DNA from: Flavobacterium psychrotolerans
GTDB lineage: Bacteria; Bacteroidota; Bacteroidia; Flavobacteriales; Flavobacteriaceae
Reading direction: 5' to 3'
Assembly (NCBI RefSeq): GCF_003097635.1
Contig: NZ_QCZI01000001.1
Span: forward strand, 359,320-423,319
Length of the DNA stretch: 64,000 bases
In this document: positions 7,469 through 19,900 of the stretch, piece by piece
Layout of the letters: each line of letters starts with the position of its first letter
Position numbering within the stretch: the first letter of the stretch is position 1
Translations under genes and position numbers: made by a program
Notes under the pieces: generated by a model
The model's database searches: none
The model's input: the letters and a program-made list of their open reading frames with translations, nothing else
Told to the model about the DNA's origin: nothing

Positions 7469-7625
7469 TCTCTAAAAATACGATAATATATATTGATTAT
7501 TAACATTTTTTCAGATCTTGACTAAAATAAATATATTAATTTATCATCTATAAAATACTACATAAGTAGTATTTTATTATTTTAAAAATAGTTCAACTTT
7601 GATTATCAATTTTAAATCAAACAAA

Positions 7626-9251
7626 ATGAAAACTATCTACCTTGGAATCTCATTCTTATTCTTCATTATCGGCACCACAAATGCCCAAGAAATTAAAGAA
7701 ACAGTCGAACCGCTTTCTAAAAAAGCCCAAAAAGGATATATGTACGATGTTTCTAAGGATGATTCGGGAAACAGTGACATTACCTTTAAAATGAAGGTGG
7801 ACAAAAAAAGTGATGCCGTGACATTTGAAAAATACAGTTTTGACAAAAATCTAAAATTTAATGCTGCTGCTGATACTCAAGAAAGAAAAGAACAGAAAGA
7901 AGATATTGAACGTACCTCTTTTAGCGCCTATGTTGGCGGCACCAGTTCTTTTGACGTACTGAGCATGAAACTTAAGTTGAACAAGATAGTTCGTTTAAAA
8001 ACATGGAATCACGAAAAGCAGGTTTACATGACTAAGAAAATAATTTCGGATGAAACCTTAAAACCAAGGAATGATAATGGAAAAGTATATTACGGTTATG
8101 CTTCCTATTCCTCTTTTGACGACACAAAAAATGACCTTTTTGCACTTGCTAAAATGGAATCGAAAGATAAAAAACAGGCCGACCAATTTCTTGTTCTTAT
8201 GATTAACGACAAACTGGAATTAAAAGAAAAAATGCTTGATCTAAATGGCTCCTACTCCCTTGTGTTTTGTCAGCAAATGCCAAGTGAAAATATTGTCATG
8301 GTGTTTGCTCCAAACAAAGGAGCTTTAAACGTTTCCAATTATGTCTATTATCAATTTGATATTGAAGGTAATATCAAAAATAAAATTGAATTTAAAAGCC
8401 CCGCATCAGCACTTTTACTAACATCTGCTTATGAAAAAGACGGAAATGTATATTTCTTCGGCTCATCAACCAAATCGAAAGATCCTTTCCAAGAAGTATT
8501 TAATGAATATGCTTCAATCTATAATCCTGGTGCTGGTGCAGATGGAAACAGTAAATTATATTTGAAATGGAAAAAATCACTAGATGAAGATATGGATAAT
8601 TTTCATTTGCTAAAATTCAGTGGTAACCAACTGACATTTGCTTCAACCACGGCTGTACCTGAATTCAAATCGAAATTCAAAACAGCCCCTGGAGACAAAG
8701 GAGCCAGCGTATATAAAGGCAAAAATTTCTTCATAGAGAATTTTTTTGTCACTGCTTCTGAAGATTATCTGGTAGCGGGGCAATTAACCAGTTCCGTAAA
8801 TATGGGTATGGGAAATCCAATGGATTCTTATGAAGACATTCTTTGTTTTCATTTTGACAAAAACGGAAATTTAAAAGCACAATATGGTATTGGTAAAATG
8901 AATAATGATAAGAAAAGTGAAATATTTAATATGAAGCAACAATTTTACCCTTCCCCCGATGGTCGTAGCTTGTATTGGGAACTTTTGGAAATAAAAGGTT
9001 TCAAAGGTTATGAATCATTTCTGGACGCTTATACTGGTTATACTACTTTTTACCCGCTCTATTTCCCTCGAATCGTTAAAATTGAATTGTCAAATTCTAC
9101 TCTTGGAGCAGTAAAAGCACTTGGTGATGGGAAATATTTCCTAAAAAGAGATTTCCCTAGATTACTTGACCCAAAAGAAAATAGCATCACCTATATAGGG
9201 CTTGATGAGGATTGGGAAAAACTCTGGATTGGAAAAATAATACTTCAATAA
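7626..9251 (+). CDS. Large exported protein of unknown function
   Basis: A 541-residue protein with a cleavable signal peptide (MKTIYLGISFLFFIIGTTNAQ). The frame is open from 7599, but the ATG at 7626 begins the signal peptide directly. The mature part contains many repeated strand-turn units of the type YYQFDIEGNIKNKIEF and CFHFDKNGNLKAQYG, as in beta-propeller-like flavobacterial proteins. No catalytic motif and no T9SS C-terminal sorting domain are seen. It is monocistronic and divergent from the histidine kinase, which may link its expression to that system; this is only positional. Confidence 0.8.
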   Translation: MKTIYLGISFLFFIIGTTNAQEIKETVEPLSKKAQKGYMYDVSKDDSGNSDITFKMKVDKKSDAVTFEKYSFDKNLKFNAAADTQERKEQKEDIERTSFSAYVGGTSSFDVLSMKLKLNKIVRLKTWNHEKQVYMTKKIISDETLKPRNDNGKVYYGYASYSSFDDTKNDLFALAKMESKDKKQADQFLVLMINDKLELKEKMLDLNGSYSLVFCQQMPSENIVMVFAPNKGALNVSNYVYYQFDIEGNIKNKIEFKSPASALLLTSAYEKDGNVYFFGSSTKSKDPFQEVFNEYASIYNPGAGADGNSKLYLKWKKSLDEDMDNFHLLKFSGNQLTFASTTAVPEFKSKFKTAPGDKGASVYKGKNFFIENFFVTASEDYLVAGQLTSSVNMGMGNPMDSYEDILCFHFDKNGNLKAQYGIGKMNNDKKSEIFNMKQQFYPSPDGRSLYWELLEIKGFKGYESFLDAYTGYTTFYPLYFPRIVKIELSNSTLGAVKALGDGKYFLKRDFPRLLDPKENSITYIGLDEDWEKLWIGKIILQ

Positions 9252-9274
9252 AAAGTACTCAAGCAAGTGAAAAA

Positions 9275-9310
9275 ATACCGATTGAAAATTAATTTTTCAG
9301 TCGGTTTTTT
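9275..9310 (+). terminator. Terminator after the large exported protein gene
   Basis: An imperfect stem, ACCGATTGAAAA with TTTTTCAGTCGGT, then a run of T. The rest of the 9311-9555 gap is AT-rich and otherwise holds only a short perfect inverted repeat, ATTTTAA-TG-TTAAAAT at 9469-9484, of unknown meaning. Confidence 0.8.
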
Positions 9311-9555
9311 AATTTTAGGAGTGCTTTGAGTTTGGCAATAAACATTAATTAAGTAGTTTATTTTTACTTGATATTGCAATGTGCTAAATGAAGTATATAC
9401 AGTAAGACTACCTTAAATTAAAGTTATTTTGTTTTTTTATATGCTTTACATTCGTATTTGGTAACATCATTTTAATGTTAAAATAAATCAAACAACCATG
9501 CTTGTATCGATTTATAGTTGGAATTTTGCAGGGTTAATTTAAACAAAACAATTAG

Positions 9556-9867
9556 ATGAGTACTCAAAACCAAATCAATATCGAAATTCCTCAAACGATA
9601 ATTGATGGTATAATGCAAAAATTACAAGAATGCAAAACCGATTTAGAACCCTATTTACAAGGAATTACATCTGAAGAATGCATTTCATTTTTTAATGTGG
9701 AAAATAAAACCGTAAGTAGAATCCAAAAAAAATCATCGATTGATACTAACCCGGATTTTGCCCCTTCATTTATGAATAAAATAGAATTTTATAAAGACGA
9801 AGAATTAGTATCACAACAGGATCCCTTTACTAATTTAGCTACATTTTTCAGCAAACCAAAAGAATAA
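9556..9867 (+). CDS. Small conserved-type hypothetical protein
   Basis: A 103-residue soluble acidic protein beginning MSTQNQINIEIPQTI, with no signal peptide or membrane helix. Coding potential looks real: clear start, balanced codon use and isolated position between a terminator and a convergent gene. An inverted repeat (9469-9484) lies upstream and might be an operator. I do not recognise a family; function unknown. Confidence 0.65.
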   Translation: MSTQNQINIEIPQTIIDGIMQKLQECKTDLEPYLQGITSEECISFFNVENKTVSRIQKKSSIDTNPDFAPSFMNKIEFYKDEELVSQQDPFTNLATFFSKPKE

Positions 9868-9933
9868 TAATCCCAAAAAAACGTTCCAAATAGAATCGAA
9901 AAAACTTTTGGTTTGAATTCTAATTTTCAAACG

Positions 9934-10806
9934 CTACTTAATGATTGTTTTCAATTCTTGTCGGTATTGTGAAGCACTTTTTCCGGTATAAGCCTTAAAT
10001 GATTTGTTGAAATGGCTAAAATTATTAAAACCACTTTCGTAACAAACTTCTGAAATACTTAGAGGTTTTTCCGCTAAAAGCTTAGAAGCGTGAACCAAAC
10101 GGTATTCGTTTACAAACGTCGTAAAAGTTTTATTGGTGATTTTTTTAAAATACCTACAAAAAGATGGGGATGTCATGCTTACTAGACTTGAAACTTCCTC
10201 TAAAGCAATGGGCTCTTGAAAATGGTCTTTCACATAATTAAAAATACTATTAATTCGATCATTATCCTGAACCTGCAATTCCATCGAGAATCCATCGGCA
10301 TTTAAAATGGTATATTCATTAGACTGTTCCAGCGCATTAAGGATATCTAACATGGTCAATAACCTTTCAAAAGGCAACTGTTCTTCCATGGCATCAATCA
10401 AGCCTCCAATCATTTTTTTAGTTTCACCCGTAAAGGTGATTCCGCCTTTAGCCTGACTAAAAAGATTCTGAATATTTTTCATCTCTGGCATTTCAAAGAA
10501 TTCATGCCCTAAAAAATTAGGTTTCATTTGAATTACCGTTTCATTTTTATTTCCTGTTTGATCATTCGTAAACCCACAATGCGGCAAATTACTTCCTATA
10601 AGAATAAGGTCACCGTCAGTATAATAGGAGATATGACTACCTATTTGTCGTTTTCCAGATCCCCCATTAACATAAACCAACTCTATTTCAGGATGGTAAT
10701 GCCACACATGGGATTTGATATTGGCATTTTCTACATATTTAGAAAAGAAAAAGGAACTTCCGTAAGATGGTGTTATAATTTCCAGGGATGGTGCTAGTAT
10801 CTTCAT
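9934..10806 (-). CDS. AraC-family transcriptional regulator
   Basis: A 290-residue regulator with an N-terminal cupin-like sensor domain (KSHVWHYHPEIELVYVNGGSG, about 31-51) and a C-terminal AraC DNA-binding domain with two HTH motifs (IALEEVSSLVSMTSPSFCRYFK and SISEVCYESGFNNFSHFNKSFKAYTG). The second HTH carries the classic GFNNFSHFNKSFK signature. The cupin type usually binds sugars or small organic ligands. It is divergent from a group of three small genes; the 34-bp element that recurs before those genes starts 67 bp from this start codon, making it the natural candidate regulator. That link is inference. Confidence 0.93.
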   Translation of the reverse strand: MKILAPSLEIITPSYGSSFFFSKYVENANIKSHVWHYHPEIELVYVNGGSGKRQIGSHISYYTDGDLILIGSNLPHCGFTNDQTGNKNETVIQMKPNFLGHEFFEMPEMKNIQNLFSQAKGGITFTGETKKMIGGLIDAMEEQLPFERLLTMLDILNALEQSNEYTILNADGFSMELQVQDNDRINSIFNYVKDHFQEPIALEEVSSLVSMTSPSFCRYFKKITNKTFTTFVNEYRLVHASKLLAEKPLSISEVCYESGFNNFSHFNKSFKAYTGKSASQYRQELKTIIK

Positions 10807-10872
10807 ATCAAGTGATTAAGTGATGTAAAAATAAGACTATTATATTCAAATTTGCCATTATTTAACCTATAT

Positions 10873-10906
10873 CGTTTTCGTGTAGATAAAATAACATATA
10901 TATTGG
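10873..10906 (+). promoter_or_regulatory. Putative operator, copy A
   Basis: A 34-bp element: CGTTTTCG, four variable bases, GA, one base, AAAATAACA, a five-base variable stretch containing TA, then ATTGG. It matches copy B (12347-12380) at 26 of 34 positions without gaps, and in both cases ends 35 bp before the -7 box. It lies between the AraC gene and the small gene at 10987. The constant spacing and two-block layout suit an AraC activator site. Confidence 0.6.
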
Positions 10907-10941
10907 TTAACACAGACCTCCACCAACCGATAATCGTACCC

Positions 10942-10949
10942 TAAATTTG
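10942..10949 (+). promoter_or_regulatory. -7 promoter box of small gene A
   Basis: TAAATTTG, an exact TAnnTTTG match, 37 bp upstream of the ATG at 10987. No -33 TTTG is present at the usual distance, consistent with an activator-dependent promoter. Confidence 0.6.
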
Positions 10950-10986
10950 CGACATAAATTATAACTACTAATTTAAAACAACAATT

Positions 10987-11094
10987 ATGAAAAATGTGAA
11001 TAGATTAAAAGCTACAATGAGAAAATTTGGTAAATCTATTGTAATGACATTACAAGAACAAGCAAAAAACTGTCCAAGGGAAACAAAGTACTAA
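10987..11094 (+). CDS. 35-residue small protein in the AraC-linked group
   Basis: An ATG-initiated frame of 35 codons plus stop (MKNVNRLKATMRKFGKSIV, ending CPRETKY). It is basic and amphipathic with no signal peptide. Support for translation is positional: a -7 box, the putative operator, a leader nearly identical to that of the gene at 11656 (ATTATAACTA, one variable base, then TAATTTAAA), and a perfect terminator at 11170. The 5' leader places the ATG at the same relative site as in the sister gene. It could be a small regulatory peptide, a secreted peptide lacking a classical signal, or the truncated remnant of a longer member. Confidence 0.5.
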   Translation: MKNVNRLKATMRKFGKSIVMTLQEQAKNCPRETKY

Positions 11095-11169
11095 TTATAT
11101 CTGTACAACCAAATTTAGACAGCGCTTTTTCAGACACTATTCAGAAAAGTGTGAGAATTTAAAAATAAC

Positions 11170-11207
11170 GGGTTTGACTTTTAATTAAAAGTCAAACCCT
11201 TTTTTTA
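11170..11207 (+). terminator. Strong terminator after small gene A
   Basis: A perfect 15-bp palindromic stem (GGGTTTGACTTTTAA with its complement) followed by seven T. It closes the 10987 transcript. Confidence 0.92.
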
Positions 11208-11539
11208 TATCTTAACTCTAAAATTATTTTAATCAAATTCCTGCTTCAACGTTATTTTCTGGATAATTTGACCATCTTCATTCTTTCATTTCAATAACAA
11301 ATACAAATTTCTATTGATACTACTTCATAAATGCGCTTAGAGTGGTTTCTCGTATACCACTTATATAGAACAGAAATAAACCTTATGCTTGAATATAGAT
11401 ATTTAATAAATATGAAGAAAAAAATTTCAACTATTGTATCCTTTTTATAGAAATATCAATGTGTTTTTAGGCTTTATTTTTTACGTTTATTTCGAAATTA
11501 CCTTAAATGTATCCTTAATTAACATTAAACAAAGTTAAT
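11208..11539. other. Gap between small genes A and C, with a possible decayed gene end
   Basis: No intact gene is seen. On the minus strand 11229-11312 translates, across one frameshift, as FVFVIEMKE then NEDGQIIQKITLKQEFD and stop, which reads like the C-terminus of a lost protein. An inverted repeat AGTGGT/ACCACT lies at 11341-11361. From 11497 on the sequence is colinear with the region upstream of the operator of the gene at 12449 (31 of 43 positions). Confidence 0.4.
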
Positions 11540-11573
11540 ATTGTCTTAATGGATAAAAAAATACCTAAATCAG
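11540..11573 (+). promoter_or_regulatory. Degenerate operator, copy C
   Basis: At exactly the spacing expected from copies A and B (end 35 bp before the -7 box) lies a diverged version keeping GAT, the A-rich block AAAAAAATA and CCTAAAT; it matches copy B at 19 of 34 positions. On its own it would be unremarkable in AT-rich DNA; its position and the colinear upstream sequence make common origin likely. Whether it still binds the regulator is open. Confidence 0.4.
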
Positions 11574-11608
11574 AAAATATAGACCTCAATAAGCTAATCC
11601 TATTGCTT

Positions 11609-11616
11609 TAGTTTTG
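11609..11616 (+). promoter_or_regulatory. -7 promoter box of small gene C
   Basis: TAGTTTTG, matching TAnnTTTG, 39 bp before the ATG at 11656. Confidence 0.6.
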
Positions 11617-11655
11617 TCCTATAAAATTATAACTATTAATTTAAAGACTACAATT

Positions 11656-12057
11656 ATGAAAAAGATTTTAAAATTAAGTTTAGTATTGGTAGTAGTTATG
11701 ACTACTATGCAAACCTATGCAGGGGAAGGTGATTTTTTACTTTATGTAAAAAAAGGAAGCGAAAAAGAAATTAGGTTTTCTTTGAACGGAATCAAAAAAA
11801 TAAATTTGGCTGTATATGACAAAGATAATAATTTGATCTATTCTGAAAATGCTTCGGGAAAAAATGGCATCTTAAGAACATACAGCTTAGATGAACTACC
11901 GTCAGGAACTTATTTCTTAGAGGTAGAAAACAATGTGAAAAAAGTGAGATACGAAATTATCGTAACTGATAAATTAGCTTCTTTAGCAAAAAAAGCAATC
12001 ACAGAGGTTTACAAAGAAGAGTTAAATGGTAAAAACGGTACGCTAGCAACCTTGTAA
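11656..12057 (+). CDS. Small exported beta-domain protein
   Basis: A 133-residue protein with a signal peptide (MKKILKLSLVLVVVMTTMQTYAG). The frame is open from 11614, but that would overlap the -7 box, so the ATG at 11656 is chosen. The mature part has the pattern NLAVYDKDNNLIYSEN then LDELPSGTYFLEVEN, the same beta-sandwich grammar as DUF3244 and T9SS sorting-like domains, with a positively charged tail. Similar flavobacterial proteins exist but are uncharacterised. Its signal-peptide DNA is closely related to that of the gene at 12449, and its 5' leader to that of the gene at 10987. Likely periplasmic or surface-exposed. Confidence 0.8.
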   Translation: MKKILKLSLVLVVVMTTMQTYAGEGDFLLYVKKGSEKEIRFSLNGIKKINLAVYDKDNNLIYSENASGKNGILRTYSLDELPSGTYFLEVENNVKKVRYEIIVTDKLASLAKKAITEVYKEELNGKNGTLATL

Positions 12058-12126
12058 ACAAAGCAGCATTTCCTTTTGAGATAAAAACCAACAGGGTCAA
12101 ATCTCTTAAAAAACGGATTGTTATTT

Positions 12127-12157
12127 AAAACAGCTCAACTTTGGGCTGTTTTTTTTT
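12127..12157 (+). terminator. Terminator after small gene C
   Basis: Stem AAAACAGCTCA with TGGGCTGTTTT and a T run. The left arm AAAACAGCTC is repeated in the terminator after the gene at 12449. Confidence 0.88.
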
Positions 12158-12346
12158 GAATATTTCCAAAAGAATATAGCAACCCTTTTCAGCTGTTGAT
12201 TTGATGCTGCAAAAAAAAACAGAAATACTTATGATTTGAATGAGCATAAAAAATAGTATAATAGATGTTTCCGTTTTTTTAACACCTTAGTGATATATGT
12301 AATATTACCTTATATCTATTCTTGATTATCTTTAAAGAAACTATTG

Positions 12347-12380
12347 CGTTTTCGCAATGACAAAATAACACGTAAATTGG
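12347..12380 (+). promoter_or_regulatory. Putative operator, copy B
   Basis: Same 34-bp layout as copy A: CGTTTTCG, GA at positions 13-14, AAAATAACA at 16-24 and ATTGG at the end, with an identical 35-bp gap to the -7 box. Differences fall mainly in the spacer positions 9-12 and 25-29, as expected for two conserved half-contacts separated by tolerant spacers. Confidence 0.6.
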
Positions 12381-12415
12381 AAAAACAAGGCGTATCCATT
12401 TCAATATTGACATGG

Positions 12416-12423
12416 TACTTTTG
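12416..12423 (+). promoter_or_regulatory. -7 promoter box of small gene B
   Basis: TACTTTTG, matching TAnnTTTG, 25 bp before the ATG at 12449. Confidence 0.6.
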
Positions 12424-12448
12424 CACCGTCAAATAAAAGGACATCGAT

Positions 12449-12895
12449 ATGTTAAAGATTTTAAAATTAAGTTTAGCAGTAGCTTTAGTAGTAATAAGTA
12501 CTACGCAAACACATGCGAATAATAATTTTCCACTTTCTTCAAAAGGAAAGAACAAAGTAGCCATTTCATTTTCTCCGAATGAAATCAAAAAAACGGATCC
12601 ATCAAACTATACGGAAGTTAGATATTATTACTTCCCTAATCTTCAAGCTTATTTTGACACAAAAGCAGGTTTGTATATTTACCAAGAAGATGGAGCTTGG
12701 GTTACATCAGAAAGTATTGCACCAAATTATAGAGGATATTCCATCAACAATGGAACTTATGTGATGCTAAAAGGATATACCGGTGATGAGCCATATTTAC
12801 TATTAAATGAGCATAAACTAAAATATCCTGCTAATTATTCCAGCAAGCGTCAACCTCCAAAAACTAAAGTTACAACAGATTTAGCTTCAAGGTAA
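12449..12895 (+). CDS. Small exported protein with a Tyr-rich YYYFP-type domain
   Basis: A 148-residue protein with signal peptide MLKILKLSLAVALVVISTTQTHA, closely related to that of the 11656 gene in protein and DNA. The mature domain (about 58-130) has VRYYYFPNLQAYFDTKAG, IYQEDGAWV and NYRGYSINNGTYVMLKGY, a pattern found in small uncharacterised Bacteroidetes envelope proteins (YYxP...YYD...YIY...W). The domain differs completely from that of the 11656 product although promoter and signal peptide are shared. The tail is basic. Function unknown; the context suggests an AraC-regulated envelope protein. Confidence 0.8.
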   Translation: MLKILKLSLAVALVVISTTQTHANNNFPLSSKGKNKVAISFSPNEIKKTDPSNYTEVRYYYFPNLQAYFDTKAGLYIYQEDGAWVTSESIAPNYRGYSINNGTYVMLKGYTGDEPYLLLNEHKLKYPANYSSKRQPPKTKVTTDLASR

Positions 12896-12925
12896 ATTAA
12901 ATTATTAGTGGATAACATCAATAGT

Positions 12926-12957
12926 AAAACAGCTCCATTTCGAGCTGTTTTTTTTAG
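12926..12957 (+). terminator. Terminator after small gene B
   Basis: Stem AAAACAGCTC with GAGCTGTTTT and a T run; A residues on the other side let it also serve the convergent gene ending at 12960. Confidence 0.9.
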
Positions 12958-12959
12958 CA

Positions 12960-13955
12960 TCACTTCTGTGCCTTTTGTCCAGCAAGATAGGGTTTCAAAA
13001 AATTTCCTAAATGGAACAAATGCAACTTTTGCGGGCTTGAAACAATAGGTTTTCTGGAAAAATTTTCATTACTTAAATAATAGTGCAAACCATCGCTCGT
13101 GGCAATGCCTTCTATTTGATGAAAAGGCAGCCTTAACTTGATTTTTCTTTTGTTGCCCGAAAAGAAATCGTTGGTTTTAAAATCATACAAAAGCCAAACA
13201 AAAGGATGCAACTTCATATTATAACCGCATAAAACCACTAATTTTTTATCTTCAACAAAGGTTGCTCCAGTAATCAAACCCTTAACATCGAATGTGGTTT
13301 TGTAATTTGCCACATAATTTCCCGGTGTTTTGGGCAGGGAATATACGCTGGTCATTTTTGATTCCCATTGTTTTGTAAACAGATAAATGCTGTCCTTGGT
13401 TACCACGAACGCTTCGCAGTCAAAATCGGTACTATTGGAATTTTTGGGTTCCACCTCCATTTGATTGGAATAATTGAAAGCAATCGTATCTATCTTGGGC
13501 TGGTTCAAAAGCAGGGAATTTTTTTCGATTCGCAACACGTGTAAATCCTTCCGATTGCCTTTGTAATTGTTACCAAAATCCCCCACATACAGATAAGCAC
13601 TATCCTGCGCAATCTCTTCCCAATCTTTATTGAGCACTTTATTGAGATGGAAGGTTTTCAGGATTGCTCCTGAAATCGTGTCTATTGCATATAAATTGGT
13701 ATCGGTGTCGTCATTATGAGTCCACAAAAAATGATTCCATTTTACCAAACCCGAAGTTTCATGCAATTGGTTATCCAAAACAACGGAAAATTCAGGTCGT
13801 ATGGATTTACTTTCATACACGCAACTCCCATCGTTAAAGGTTGCCAAAGGATTGTAGTTCATAGCCAAAGCATCCGTACAGCCCAAAACCTGCGCCTGAG
13901 ATTGCAATGAAAAACAACCCAAAAGAAATAATAAATAAATTACGCTTTTATTCAT
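12960..13955 (-). CDS. Exported protein with a GCTD...DGSC calcium-loop-like motif
   Basis: A 331-residue exported protein (signal peptide 1-21, ending SQAQ). Just after cleavage comes GCTDALAMNYNPLATFNDGSC, a cysteine-bounded motif of the GCTDxxAxNYNPxAxxDDGSC type common in secreted Bacteroidetes proteins. The remainder (about 55-320) resembles a beta-propeller: HETSGLVKWNHFLWTHNDD, LYVGDFGNNYKGNRKDLHVL, DFDCEAFVVTKDSIYLFTK. No C-terminal sorting domain is visible. It lies 4 bp downstream of the GyrI-like gene and is probably co-transcribed with it. Function unknown. Confidence 0.82.
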   Translation of the reverse strand: MNKSVIYLLFLLGCFSLQSQAQVLGCTDALAMNYNPLATFNDGSCVYESKSIRPEFSVVLDNQLHETSGLVKWNHFLWTHNDDTDTNLYAIDTISGAILKTFHLNKVLNKDWEEIAQDSAYLYVGDFGNNYKGNRKDLHVLRIEKNSLLLNQPKIDTIAFNYSNQMEVEPKNSNSTDFDCEAFVVTKDSIYLFTKQWESKMTSVYSLPKTPGNYVANYKTTFDVKGLITGATFVEDKKLVVLCGYNMKLHPFVWLLYDFKTNDFFSGNKRKIKLRLPFHQIEGIATSDGLHYYLSNENFSRKPIVSSPQKLHLFHLGNFLKPYLAGQKAQK

Positions 13956-15110: not shown

Positions 15111-16670
15111 CTATTTATTCTTATTTCTTTCTTCAATCTCTTCCTGTATTCTTTCTGAAAATATTAAACCGATAACAAAACCTCCCAATACCCCCCCTAT
15201 ATGTGCAGCATTATCGACACCTCCAGCCAACCCCATGAGCAGGTTATAGCCAACAAAAACTGATGTAATAATGAAAAACGTTCTATTTAGAGCAGGTTCA
15301 AATACCTTCATTACAATTAAGGCAAGCATAAAACCGAACAACCCAAAAACAGCACCTGAAGCACCAACACTTATTCCGTTTTTATGCCAATAAATACTCG
15401 TCAGGGAAGCACATAAACCACAAATAATATATACAAACAGATAACACCATCTCCCTAATATAGGCTCTAAAAAGAAACTCACAAAATACAAACTCAAAAG
15501 ATTATTTAAGATATGCATTAAGTTGCCATGCAAAAAGATACAAGTCAATAATCGCCACCATTCACCATGTAGTACCGACGATCGGTGTACTGCACCCCAT
15601 CGGTACAAATCTTCACCCTCAAAGGAAAAAAAACCTAATCCACACATTACCATGATGAGATAGACTAAAAGATTCAAATCTATGAGTATCGGAGTCATGA
15701 AATAATCTTTTCTGGGTATTAATAGCTCAAAAGTTTCTCTCCAACCTTTTCTCTTTTTATTGATTTTCAAAAGACTTGAGGTGTTTTCCGACTTAAATTT
15801 ATAGCAAAGTAATAATAAAAGAAAAACCAACACTCCAATAGCTAAAGACTTAAAAATCCAACCCAAGGTGCCTTCATTTCTATTCTCAAATTTGCCATAA
15901 CACGTTTCCAGCAAAACATCACTTCCGTCACTTACTAACACGTTATATTGCAATGCTTTCTTATACATTTTGGCATCATTTGTAATCCCAATGTGTTCCA
16001 AATAACTGAAATCGCCAAAGTAGGTTGACCTGAAATCACTTTCGCTTTTTTGTATAAAGTCATCAAAGGCTCTTTCCTTCACATCATGACTTAGGCTATT
16101 ACGTACTTGGTAATGATACTTCTTACATAACCAGTAGTGGCAACCTTCTTTTACGGTATCTTTGGCAGTCTTTAGGATAGGTTGCACACAGTATAGAGCA
16201 AAATTTAAATCCCTATGATGTTTCCCACTGACATTTACCTTGCGGGTAAAACTCGATTCAGAGCTATAAAAATAAAACCGTTTCAGATTGTAGTATTTAG
16301 TTCTGGGATGGCTTTCCAGTTCATAAATATGCTCTAATTCCGTCAGCGTTCCGGTGGCAGTAGCAAGATATTTCTGAACTATAATAGTGGGAATAGCTAT
16401 TGCAAATCCAACAATCATATATAAAAATGTAGCACCATTATCTTTCTTAAATTGCAATAACTTTATCCTGGGTCTCAATAGCAGATAGACCACTCCAAAA
16501 GCTAAAACTAAAGGCGCAAAAAACTCAATAATCTGTTCATTTACTTCTAACCACTCTAGTTTGATGACCAATAGCCAATTCAAAAAGGAATAGGTTACAA
16601 TAAACCCAATAATTGTTGCTAAAAAAGGAAGATAAATAAATCGTACTTTGTTGGAAAAGTCTTGTAACAT
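15111..16670 (-). CDS. Rhomboid-family intramembrane serine protease with long N-terminal region
   Basis: A 519-residue membrane protein whose C-terminal 190 residues are a rhomboid domain: HGNLMHILNN (His381, His386), the nucleophile in GASGAVFG (Ser438) and the catalytic His490 in AAHIGGVLGG. Before it are about 320 residues that most bacterial rhomboids lack, with membrane helices near 11-35, 48-65, 81-98 and 271-290 and a soluble, Cys-containing region (about 105-265). This region probably lies outside the membrane and could sense or recruit substrate. The gene is monocistronic with its own terminator. Confidence 0.92.
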   Translation of the reverse strand: MLQDFSNKVRFIYLPFLATIIGFIVTYSFLNWLLVIKLEWLEVNEQIIEFFAPLVLAFGVVYLLLRPRIKLLQFKKDNGATFLYMIVGFAIAIPTIIVQKYLATATGTLTELEHIYELESHPRTKYYNLKRFYFYSSESSFTRKVNVSGKHHRDLNFALYCVQPILKTAKDTVKEGCHYWLCKKYHYQVRNSLSHDVKERAFDDFIQKSESDFRSTYFGDFSYLEHIGITNDAKMYKKALQYNVLVSDGSDVLLETCYGKFENRNEGTLGWIFKSLAIGVLVFLLLLLCYKFKSENTSSLLKINKKRKGWRETFELLIPRKDYFMTPILIDLNLLVYLIMVMCGLGFFSFEGEDLYRWGAVHRSSVLHGEWWRLLTCIFLHGNLMHILNNLLSLYFVSFFLEPILGRWCYLFVYIICGLCASLTSIYWHKNGISVGASGAVFGLFGFMLALIVMKVFEPALNRTFFIITSVFVGYNLLMGLAGGVDNAAHIGGVLGGFVIGLIFSERIQEEIEERNKNK

Positions 16671-16988
16671 TGAGGTATTAATACTAAATTAAAATTTCAC
16701 TTTAAACTTGTAATAAGTCACGTTATTAGGGGTGTAATACTGTCAAGCACGACAATCTCCCTCTATCTTGTCCTATAAAAATTTACCTCTTTACACAAAC
16801 CATAAAATAGATTTACAACCGTTTGCAAAAAAAGGAGTTCTCTGTCAAAAAAAATCTCGCTCCTGCGGTTAGACTTCTTGCCCCACTAAAAAGCGGGATA
16901 AGCAATTCACTTGTTTTCTCTGCAATCCCGCTAAAAAGCGGGATAAGCGATTCACACACTTTTTGCTTTGTAAAAAGTGGTTCTCTGC
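16671..16988. repeat. Intergenic stretch with 25-bp direct repeats and a hairpin
   Basis: Two copies of CTAAAAAGCGGGATAAGC plus (A/G)ATTCAC at 16886-16910 and 16931-16955 (24 of 25 identical, 45-bp period). The second is preceded by ATCCCGC, giving a perfect hairpin ATCCCGC-TAAAAA-GCGGGAT. No gene is seen. It lies downstream of icmF and may act as its transcription end or be a dispersed repeat. Confidence 0.6.
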
Positions 16989-19900
16989 TTACATATTCCG
17001 TCTATACTGCCCTCCCACTTCAAACAACGCACTGGTAATTTGCCCCAAAGAGCAAACCTTAGTCGCATCCATCAAGTGCTCGAATAAATTTTGGTTTTTG
17101 ATGGCGGCTTCCTGCAAGTTATTCAATTGTTCGTTTACAATATCCTGATTGGATTGGTGCAAATGGTACAACATATCAATTTGGTATTGTTTTTCTTCTT
17201 CGGTGGCACGAATCACTTCGGCAGGAATTACCGTTGGAGAACCTTTAGAGCTCAAGAACGTATTCACGCCAATAATCGGGAATTCACCCGTATGTTTCAA
17301 GGTTTCATAATACAAACTTTCCTCCTGAATTTTAGAGCGTTGGTACATGGTTTCCATCGCGCCAAGCACGCCACCACGTTCGGTGATTCTATCAAATTCC
17401 TCTAAAACCGCGGCTTCCACCAAATCCGTCAATTCTTCGATGATAAACGAACCCTGTATTGGGTTTTCGTTTTTCGCCAACCCTAATTCTTTATTAATGA
17501 TTAATTGAATTGCCATCGCACGGCGTACACTTTCTTCCGTTGGCGTGGTAATCGCTTCATCGTATGCATTGGTATGCAAGGAATTGCAGTTGTCGTAAAT
17601 GGCATATAAGGCTTGCAAAGTAGTACGAATATCGTTAAAGTCAATTTCCTGTGCGTGTAAGGAACGTCCGGAAGTTTGAATATGGTATTTCAACATTTGC
17701 GCCCTTTCGTTGGCTCCGTATTTGTTTTTCATGGCTTTCGCCCAAATCTTGCGCGCCACACGACCAATCACGGCATATTCCGGATCAATTCCGTTAGAGA
17801 AAAAGAACGATAAATTAGGCCCAAAATCGTTGATATTCATGCCTCGGCTCAAATAATATTCCACATACGTAAACCCATTGGAAAGCGTGAATGCCAATTG
17901 CGTAATAGGGTTTGCCCCTGCTTCGGCGATATGGTAGCCCGAAATGGAAACCGAATAAAAGTTCCTCACGTTTTCTTTGATAAAATATTCCTGCACGTCG
18001 CCCATCAATCGCAAAGCAAATTCGGTGGAGAAAATACAGGTATTTTGTGCCTGGTCTTCTTTTAAGATATCGGCTTGAACGGTACCTCGAACTTGGGATA
18101 ATGTCCTTACTTTGATTTCGTTATAAATATTTAATGGTAAAACTTGGTCACCGGTCACTCCCAAAAGGAATAATCCCAAGCCATTGTTTCCGTCGGGTAA
18201 ATCGCCTTGATAATGCGGCCGTTCCGTTCCTTTTTTCTTGTAGATTTCGTTGATTTTTTCGGCAACTTCCTCTTCCAGATTGTTTTCTTTGATGTAATGT
18301 TCGCATTGCTGATCGATGGCCGCATTCATGAAAAAGCCCAACAACATGGGAGCAGGCCCATTTATCGTCATACTCACCGAGGTCATGGCATGAACCAAAT
18401 CGAAACCCGAATACAGTTTTTTGGCATCGTCCAAACAGCAAATGGAAACTCCCGCATTTCCAATTTTCCCATAAATATCGGGACGGACATGGGGATCGTT
18501 TCCGTATAAAGTCACGCTGTCAAAAGCAGTGGAAAGTCGTTTTGCCGGCAATCCCGCACTCACATAATGAAAACGTTTGTTGGTTCGCTCCGGCCCGCCT
18601 TCACCCGCAAACATGCGTGATGGGTCTTCCCCTTCCCTTTTAAACGGATACAAACCCGAGGTAAAAGGAAATTTACCCGGGACATTTTCCTGCAAGTTCC
18701 AACGCAAAATATCGCCCCAAGCCTGATATTTGGGCAACGCTATTTTTGGGATTTGGGAATGCGACAAACTCTCGGTATGGGTTGCAATTTTGATTTCTTT
18801 ATCGCGGACTTTAAAGGTGTAAAACGGATTTTTATATTTATTCACTTTTTCCGCCCAAGTTAAAATGATTTCCCAATTGTAGGGATCGAGGTTCATTTTT
18901 ACTTTATCAAACTGGTTCAGCAAGAGGTTTAAAAAGATTTTATCCTCGGCTGCACCCGGTTTTTCAGATTCTAAAGCACTTGGTAAAACGGAATTATCAT
19001 TAATTCCTGCCTTGTTCAATTCGGGAATTTTCTTGGCTACCGATTCGATGGTTTTAAAAATCCCGTATAATTTTTGGGCTACTTCCACTTGTGAAAGTGC
19101 CGTAGTGTCGTATTTTCTGTTATTTTCTGCGATTTCGGATAGATAACGGGTTCTGTGTGGCGGAATGACGAATATTTTTTCGCTCATTTCGCGAGTGATT
19201 TGGAACGTCGATTTTAAATCGGAATCTGTTTTCTCGACGATTTTATCCATAATCGCTTTGTAGAGCGTATTCATTCCGGGATCATTGAATTGCGATGCAA
19301 TGGTTCCAAAAACAGGCATATCCTCCAGATTTACATCCCAAAGATTATTGTTGCGTTGGTACTGTTTTTTGACATCGCGAATGGCATCGAGTGCTCCTCG
19401 TTTATCAAATTTGTTAAGCGCGACTAAATCGGCAAAATCCAACATGTCGATTTTTTCCAATTGGGTTGCTGCACCAAATTCAGGCGTCATCACGTAAAGT
19501 GAAACATCGGAATGATCCATGATTTCGGTATCGGATTGCCCGATTCCGGAAGTTTCGAGGATGATGATGTCGTATTTTGCCGCCTTCAATACCTGAATAG
19601 CATCGGCAACATATTTGGATAAAGCCAAATTGGATTGGCGTGTTGCCAAAGAACGCATATAAACTCTAGGATTATTGATGGCATTCATGCGAATTCTGTC
19701 GCCAAGCAAGGCACCACCCGTTTTACGTTTTGATGGATCGACTGAGATTAATCCGATAGTTTTGGTTGGAAAATCGATTAAAAAACGGCGAACCAACTCA
19801 TCCACTAAAGATGATTTCCCGGAGCCTCCAGTTCCTGTAATTCCGAGAACGGGCGTTTTGCAATCTTTATTTTTTTGGCGAATCTGTTCAAAAACGGGCT

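Follow-up and report, generated by a model that had tools for sequence, protein, structure and literature searches.

Genes and promoter elements at the locus

The locus lies in a 64-kb stretch of DNA, the whole of which is called the window here, and comprises a gene for an AraC-type regulator (araC) and, on the other strand, three promoters with related upstream elements, each followed by a small ORF (Table 1). The C-terminal double HTH of the regulator was identified by its match to PF12833 (73.5 bits, E = 1.7e-20; cut-off, 33.6) and also matched PF00165 (54.5 bits), and the HTH part matched PDB chains of AraC-family DNA-binding domains, among them MarA (1bl0; E = 1.6e-5) and SoxS (7w5w; E = 4e-4). 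The matches of the N-terminal part to Cupin_2 (24.7 bits; cut-off, 27.2) and AraC_binding (19.5 bits; cut-off, 21.1) were both below threshold, and the PRK10572 AraC model gave 49.2 bits over residues 51 to 286, far under its cut-off of 208. A 103-amino-acid ORF convergent with araC (positions 9556 to 9867) had no match in Pfam or NCBIfam and, among the loci fetched by then, matched only those of its own genome. No Rfam match to an RNA element was found in positions 9200 to 13000.

Table 1. Features of the locus, numbered from the first position of the window
Feature	Position	Strand	Remarks
AraC-family regulator, 290 aa	9934-10806	-	N-terminal putatively cupin-like part, C-terminal double HTH
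Element A	10873-10906	+	CGTTTTCG block 10873-10880; conserved core 10884-10914
-7 box, promoter A	10942-10949	+	TAAATTTG; transcription start expected near 10954
p35, 35-codon ORF	10987-11094	+	Follows promoter A; in relatives this place is taken by the p133 gene nearest to araC
Insertion sequence end, ~80 nt	11126-11206		3' of p35
Element C, diverged	11540-11573	+	Core 11551-11581; CGTTTTCG block lost
-7 box, promoter C	11609-11616	+	TAGTTTTG; spacing identical to A and B
p133, 133 aa	11656-12057	+	Behind promoter C; N-terminal signal-like segment (by eye), predicted Ig-like beta domain
Element B	12347-12380	+	CGTTTTCG block 12347-12354; core 12358-12388
-7 box, promoter B	12416-12423	+	TACTTTTG
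p148, chimeric, 148 aa	12449-12895	+	Behind promoter B; p133-type N-terminus and another domain (FPNLQAYFDT type)

The first-pass annotation had described a 34-bp element at all three promoters. On recount, its coordinates and its identities of 26 of 34 positions between A and B and 19 of 34 between C and B were exact, and C and A share 18 of 34. The best in-register 34-mer identities were 26 (A-B), 27 (B-C), and 23 (A-C), the B-C value being higher because the conserved part runs further downstream than the frame originally drawn. Among 20,000 pairs of 120-nt promoters simulated with a first-order Markov model and compared in register, the best 34-mer identity had a mean of 14.5 and a maximum of 23; in any register the maximum was 25 (n = 1,500), and the 19 of 34 matches of C with B in the original frame corresponded to a simulated P of 0.0008. 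The observation of three related promoter elements is thus confirmed. The element was also said to stand at a constant distance from a TAnnTTTG box, and the spacing is indeed the same for the boxes starting at 10942, 11609, and 12416. This box is the -7 consensus of Bacteroidota sigma-A promoters according to excerpts of PMC6847099 and PMC9723704.

The extent originally given to the element had to be revised. The CGTTTTCG block with which it opened represents an extension seen in the Flavobacterium group, whereas the conserved core, approximately GGTAATATAGCATAGATATTGGAAAATA and ~31 nt long, starts ~10 nt further downstream. The core spans approximately -70 to -40 if the -7 box is placed at -12 to -5, as it is for Flavobacterium johnsoniae in an excerpt of PMC6847099. 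The absence of a -33 motif, which had been noticed at the best-conserved copy, holds for all three, since none of the window promoters (0 of 3) has a TTG 17 to 24 nt upstream of its -7 box.

A search of the window's genome for the spaced motif as first formulated, which the annotation had proposed, returned only A and B at up to three mismatches; the pattern occurred in 7 of 299 genomes of the genus, the window's genome included, and the reversed-pattern control gave one match. When core, spacing, and box were searched together in the same genome, A and B were perfect, C had two mismatches, and ten other places had two or three, the reversed-pattern control yielding 8 + 10 matches. We therefore rejected a wider regulon in this genome, as the matches beyond A, B, and C were no more than those of the control.

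Behind promoter A, p35 had no match in Pfam or NCBIfam, and a protein comparison with the fetched loci matched only those of its own genome. In 150 genomes searched with the DNA of positions 10860 to 11230, relatives were matched mostly across the element, the leader, and the insertion sequence (IS) end. Inside p35 there were a few short matches, of which the four inspected lie within unrelated genes or at their edges, and p35 was rejected as a known peptide. The IS end is 80 to 86% identical to repeats in genomes of the genus, and the match stops at the edge of a 1,353-bp element that is repeated in one genome (G138), where the full copies (L176 and L177) encode a 398-amino-acid transposase, presumably IS256-like. 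Several other IS-end matches lie within ~300 nt of contig ends. It is likely that the original p133 gene of promoter A was lost and its promoter left behind. Gene A of the window appears to be missing or to have been replaced, and the product of gene B is chimeric.

The p133 protein has 469 relatives at E <= 0.001, itself included and with F. johnsoniae among the species represented, and the window's genome yielded a single p133 gene at E <= 1e-12. Its predicted model (mean pLDDT, 70) matched best the DUF3244 protein 4g5a, with an E of 5.5e-3 and no PDB match at 1e-3. As a clear DUF3244 member p133 was rejected, scoring 21.4 bits against the Pfam cut-off of 25, so that the likeness is one of fold only; as a clear T9SS type A cargo it was likewise rejected (TIGR04183, 20.7 bits; cut-off, 23). 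A precomputed PF18962 label is attached to p133 and many of its relatives, whose database names are only "secretion protein," "T9SS type A sorting domain-containing protein," "DUF3244 domain-containing protein," or similar. The family is described here as one of small, predicted secreted, putatively Ig-like proteins. In p148, residues 1 to 50 or 1 to 54 match p133 relatives at 44 to 51%, and the first 40 nt of the gene are identical to those of the p133 gene at 32 positions. The remainder belongs to another small protein family, in which most of the 24 relatives listed carry other N-termini; one relative, at 86% (P0122), has the same chimera.

The AraC/p133 pair in other genomes

The locus was compared in the best 80 of 584 AraC relatives, 52 of which are from the Flavobacterium group (3 being unplaced Flavobacteriaceae or Bacteroidetes metagenome-assembled genomes) and 28 from other genera, including 20 from Pedobacter. 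A p133-family gene (E <= 1e-3) was present in all 80 loci and stood divergent from araC within 600 bp in 78, the exceptions being L088 and L122, which have no divergent p133 gene. The divergent target is thus conserved in relatives, and at the window locus p35 occupies its place. The recurrent neighbors differ: an esterase-like gene lies 3' of araC in 32 of the 80 loci but in none of the 28 from other genera (it is also absent at the window locus), and 19 to 20 of the other-genus loci have ribosomal-protein-like and DNA polymerase III-like neighbors, all of these names coming from a reading of the sequences. This difference between the two groups argues that araC and p133 form a conserved unit. 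The neighbors were also considered as pointers to the ligand of AraC and set aside.

The two genes also occur together. Among 150 genomes of the genus, an AraC ortholog (E <= 1e-60) was found in 54 and p133 (E <= 1e-12) in 55; 54 genomes had both, none had AraC only, one had p133 only (G044), and 95 had neither (Fisher test, 2e-40, phylogeny being ignored). In G044, the start of an araC gene adjoins p133 at a contig end. In a sample of the phylum, AraC was matched in 38 of 296 genomes, and 27 loci were newly fetched, the 15 most distant of the 45 AraC matches listed being left out; a p133-family gene (E <= 1e-2) was present in all 27. In 26 of them (all but L203), a p133 gene is preceded by a site with its box that ranks first or second in the locus, although some of the sites in this sample are weak (L201, 7.5; L207, 9.0). 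The element accompanies the AraC ortholog and a divergent p133 gene in Flavobacterium, Pedobacter, and other genera, at a constant promoter spacing.

Conservation of the core and its spacing

The p133-family genes of the 80 loci (155 at E <= 1e-4) were scored with a site matrix at a threshold of 10, and 127 of them had a site above it. TAnnTT follows the 43-nt site after exactly 31 nt in 124 of the 127, and in the remaining three the box falls outside the stretch scanned. The 28 genes without a site comprise 25 copies of a distal paralog of 125 to 130 amino acids, one shifted variant (L100), and two weak sites with a box (L114 and L119). At a score of at least 8 and with a box, 172 sites were counted in 107 loci: 156 before p133 genes, 6 facing araC, 7 before p133-like starts that run into a locus end (judged from their translations), and 3 others, so the reach of the element in these loci is p133 and araC.

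A and B were among the seeds of the site alignment, and many of the genes counted had also served to train the matrix; because this overlap stands behind both the 124 of 127 and the 172, only ranks obtained with held-out sites are nearly independent. A core matrix was built from Flavobacterium-group loci only, excluding the window sites and the 28 other-genus loci. In 27 of these 28, it gave the top rank to the divergent promoter, which in the exception (L132) came second to another p133 promoter of the same locus. Over all positions of the window, A, B, and C ranked 1, 2, and 3 (scores 21.2, 15.7, and 15.6), followed by a position scoring 10.5 without a box; with a 47-nt matrix, C ranked first in the window and B third. 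Per-column information also showed that, across genera, the core is conserved far more than the stretch between core and box. Site-bearing promoters with a TTG at a -33-like spacing numbered 75 of 97 in the Flavobacterium group but 3 of 27 among the other genera.

The left block (CGTTTTCG or CGGTTTCG) is a feature of the Flavobacterium group, its pattern being present in 0 of the 28 other-genus loci. Within the group, it was found in 14 of 23 loci in which p133 is a near neighbor of araC (near variants occur in several of the nine that lack it) and in 27 of 29 loci in which the nearest upstream p133 start is at least 260 bp from araC or there is no such gene. Since in this latter set the block adjoins araC, away from any p133 promoter, it may serve araC itself.

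Copies of the element also occur away from the usual arrangement. Each of ten strict matches outside the window's genome precedes a gene starting MKTILKLSLVV or similar, i.e., a p133 relative; the AraC ortholog neighbors the match in 4 of the 10 regions fetched and is encoded in all six of the other genomes with strict copies. In one genome (G259), four copies lie behind rRNA operons, two recognized by an Rfam scan and two by near-identity of the stretch. The p133 gene and element are near identical at the four operons (L017 to L020; in L017, the 5S rRNA gene is at 7530 to 7639 and p133 at 7893 to 8297). A contig-end copy in L014 lies behind a 5S rRNA gene (17174 to 17283), with p133 at 16508 to 16912 on the same strand; in L023, the other contig-end copy, the Rfam scan found no rRNA. 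Both G259 and G150 encode AraC elsewhere in the genome, with its own divergent p133. Flavo-1 RNA (RF01705) was observed near rRNA-linked or contig-end p133 genes in L014 (16310 to 16393, ~115 nt behind p133), L017 (1653 to 1732), L018, and L023.

Mirror-image copies facing araC were sought in 108 upstream regions (the 107 loci and the window) and in 324 simulated control regions. At a score of at least 8, with their own box at the same spacing, they were found in 6 of the 108 versus 0 of the 324, and at a score of at least 0 in 9 versus 0. None of the copies at a score of at least 8 was in the Flavobacterium group or the window, the best there being 5.1 in L109 and the window scoring -23. The distal paralog without the element occurs in 25 array loci (L057 to L093; e.g., L057, 2819 to 3205), and those read begin with MTKFTKMGLV, MTNFTKMGLV, or similar. 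Not every p133-family member is thus controlled through the element, and the distal paralog is probably under other control.

The first-pass annotation had proposed a small, local AraC-activated group. An AraC-controlled group remains the best reading of the three promoters and is supported by these comparisons of sequence, and "local" is true of the window's genome; elsewhere, however, the group is older and wider, with copies behind rRNA operons.

Proposed mechanism and comparison with known systems

A, B, and C are probably operator sites of the adjacent AraC protein, which would recruit RNA polymerase to the TAnnTTTG boxes. The AraC-family protein would bind just upstream of three promoters without a recognizable -33 motif. 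The two HTHs of one AraC-family subunit contact DNA ~10 bp apart, and here they would reach A/GCA and TTGG, which are one helical turn (~10 bp) from each other. Bound AraC would bring RNA polymerase to the boxes, i.e., activate, and a ligand in the cupin-like part would control it. The usual output would be the small, predicted secreted Ig-like p133 proteins, often encoded in tandem arrays; in the window, promoter C precedes p133, promoter B the chimera, and promoter A only the 35-codon ORF beside the IS remnant. The absence of a -33 TTG in the window and in 24 of 27 other-genus promoters suggests that the three promoters are activator dependent, although the -33-like TTG of most Flavobacterium-group promoters (75 of 97) speaks against such dependence. 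The divergence of the element at C, with its left block gone, also counts against the operator reading. So do the distal paralogs without the element, the two loci without a divergent p133 gene, the lack of araC-facing copies at a score of at least 8 in the Flavobacterium group and the window, and the weakness of some sites in the phylum sample.

Duplication of one module is real: the 5' leader is common to A and C, the coding start is common to B and C (32 of 40 nt), and tandem p133 arrays are found in relatives. It could therefore be held that the promoters are duplicates of one gene start and their similarity a leftover, with no regulator site involved. We consider this highly improbable, since the core is conserved across genera far beyond the adjoining core-to-box stretch, 124 of the 127 p133 genes with a site keep exactly one spacing, and the araC-facing copies, which have the same spacing in six loci, are not leftovers of p133 starts. 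The same araC-facing copies weigh against the element being read by another, unlinked regulator, with AraC incidental or a second input only. Copies far from araC, such as those behind the rRNA operons of G259, would fit such a regulator, which is nevertheless very unlikely given that 54 of the 55 genomes with AraC or p133 have both and that the pair stays adjacent in differing genomic surroundings.

If AraC does bind the element, it might still repress, or act mainly by looping between divergent promoters, in the manner of AraC at araBAD when arabinose is absent. The divergent orientation of araC and p133 and, in some lineages, sites facing both genes are consistent with this. Activation is preferred to repression because of the position of the core, which is upstream of the -33 region and not over the -7 box, and because the -33 TTG is missing from the three window promoters and 24 of the 27 in other genera, as expected for activator-dependent promoters. 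Repression or looping thus seems unlikely, and activation by AraC remains the preferred reading.

We found no description of the AraC/p133 pair or its site in the open-access literature, judged by title and abstract among the matches listed, so both appear to be undescribed as far as such listings show. To our knowledge, AraC-family operator sites are seldom this clearly defined in Bacteroidota. In the present case, 107 loci reveal the site and its exact distance from the promoter, together with the likely regulator and the target family, and a dedicated regulator would be a means of learning when the numerous p133 proteins are made. We tentatively suggest that one AraC-type sensor might serve a single conserved output, an amplified secreted Ig-like protein, and that operator, promoter, and signal start might form a portable cassette. 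If so, the cassette would have been copied into arrays, put behind rRNA operons, turned toward araC, and fused to a new secreted domain, as in p148.

Among known proteins, those closest to the predicted p133 fold are the DUF3244 proteins of Bacteroides (4g5a, 3d33, and 3sd2) and T9SS type A C-terminal domains (8glk), at weak E values of 5.5e-3 to 3e-2. Unlike these domains, p133 makes up an entire small protein, carries an additional tail at its C terminus, and falls below the family cut-offs. DUF3244 genes of Bacteroides thetaiotaomicron appear in iron-response lists, and the excerpt of PMC10434189 giving them draws no link to an AraC/p133 system.

The HTH part of the window AraC resembles the regulators MarA, SoxS, and Rob in matching MarA and SoxS chains, but the protein is a full-length regulator with an N-terminal sensor-like part, and its sites stand before one protein family and araC, unlike the global regulon of MarA/SoxS/Rob. 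In a further resemblance, the sites of those regulators are asymmetric, ~20 to 30 nt long, and located upstream of the promoter.

The proposed mechanism would be of a known kind, namely, activation by an AraC-family protein from a divergent intergenic site. As in the AraC-araBAD system of Escherichia coli, the regulator gene is divergent from the target promoter, the site lies just upstream of the core promoter, and the regulator combines a putatively cupin-like part with a double HTH; the core, TAGCA..ATTGG.AAA, may also resemble the araI half-site TAGC-N7-TCCATA. Unlike in araBAD, each promoter here has one clear core instead of the araI1/araI2 pairing, the promoter is of the Bacteroidota sigma-A type, and the output consists of small predicted secreted proteins and not of sugar catabolism.
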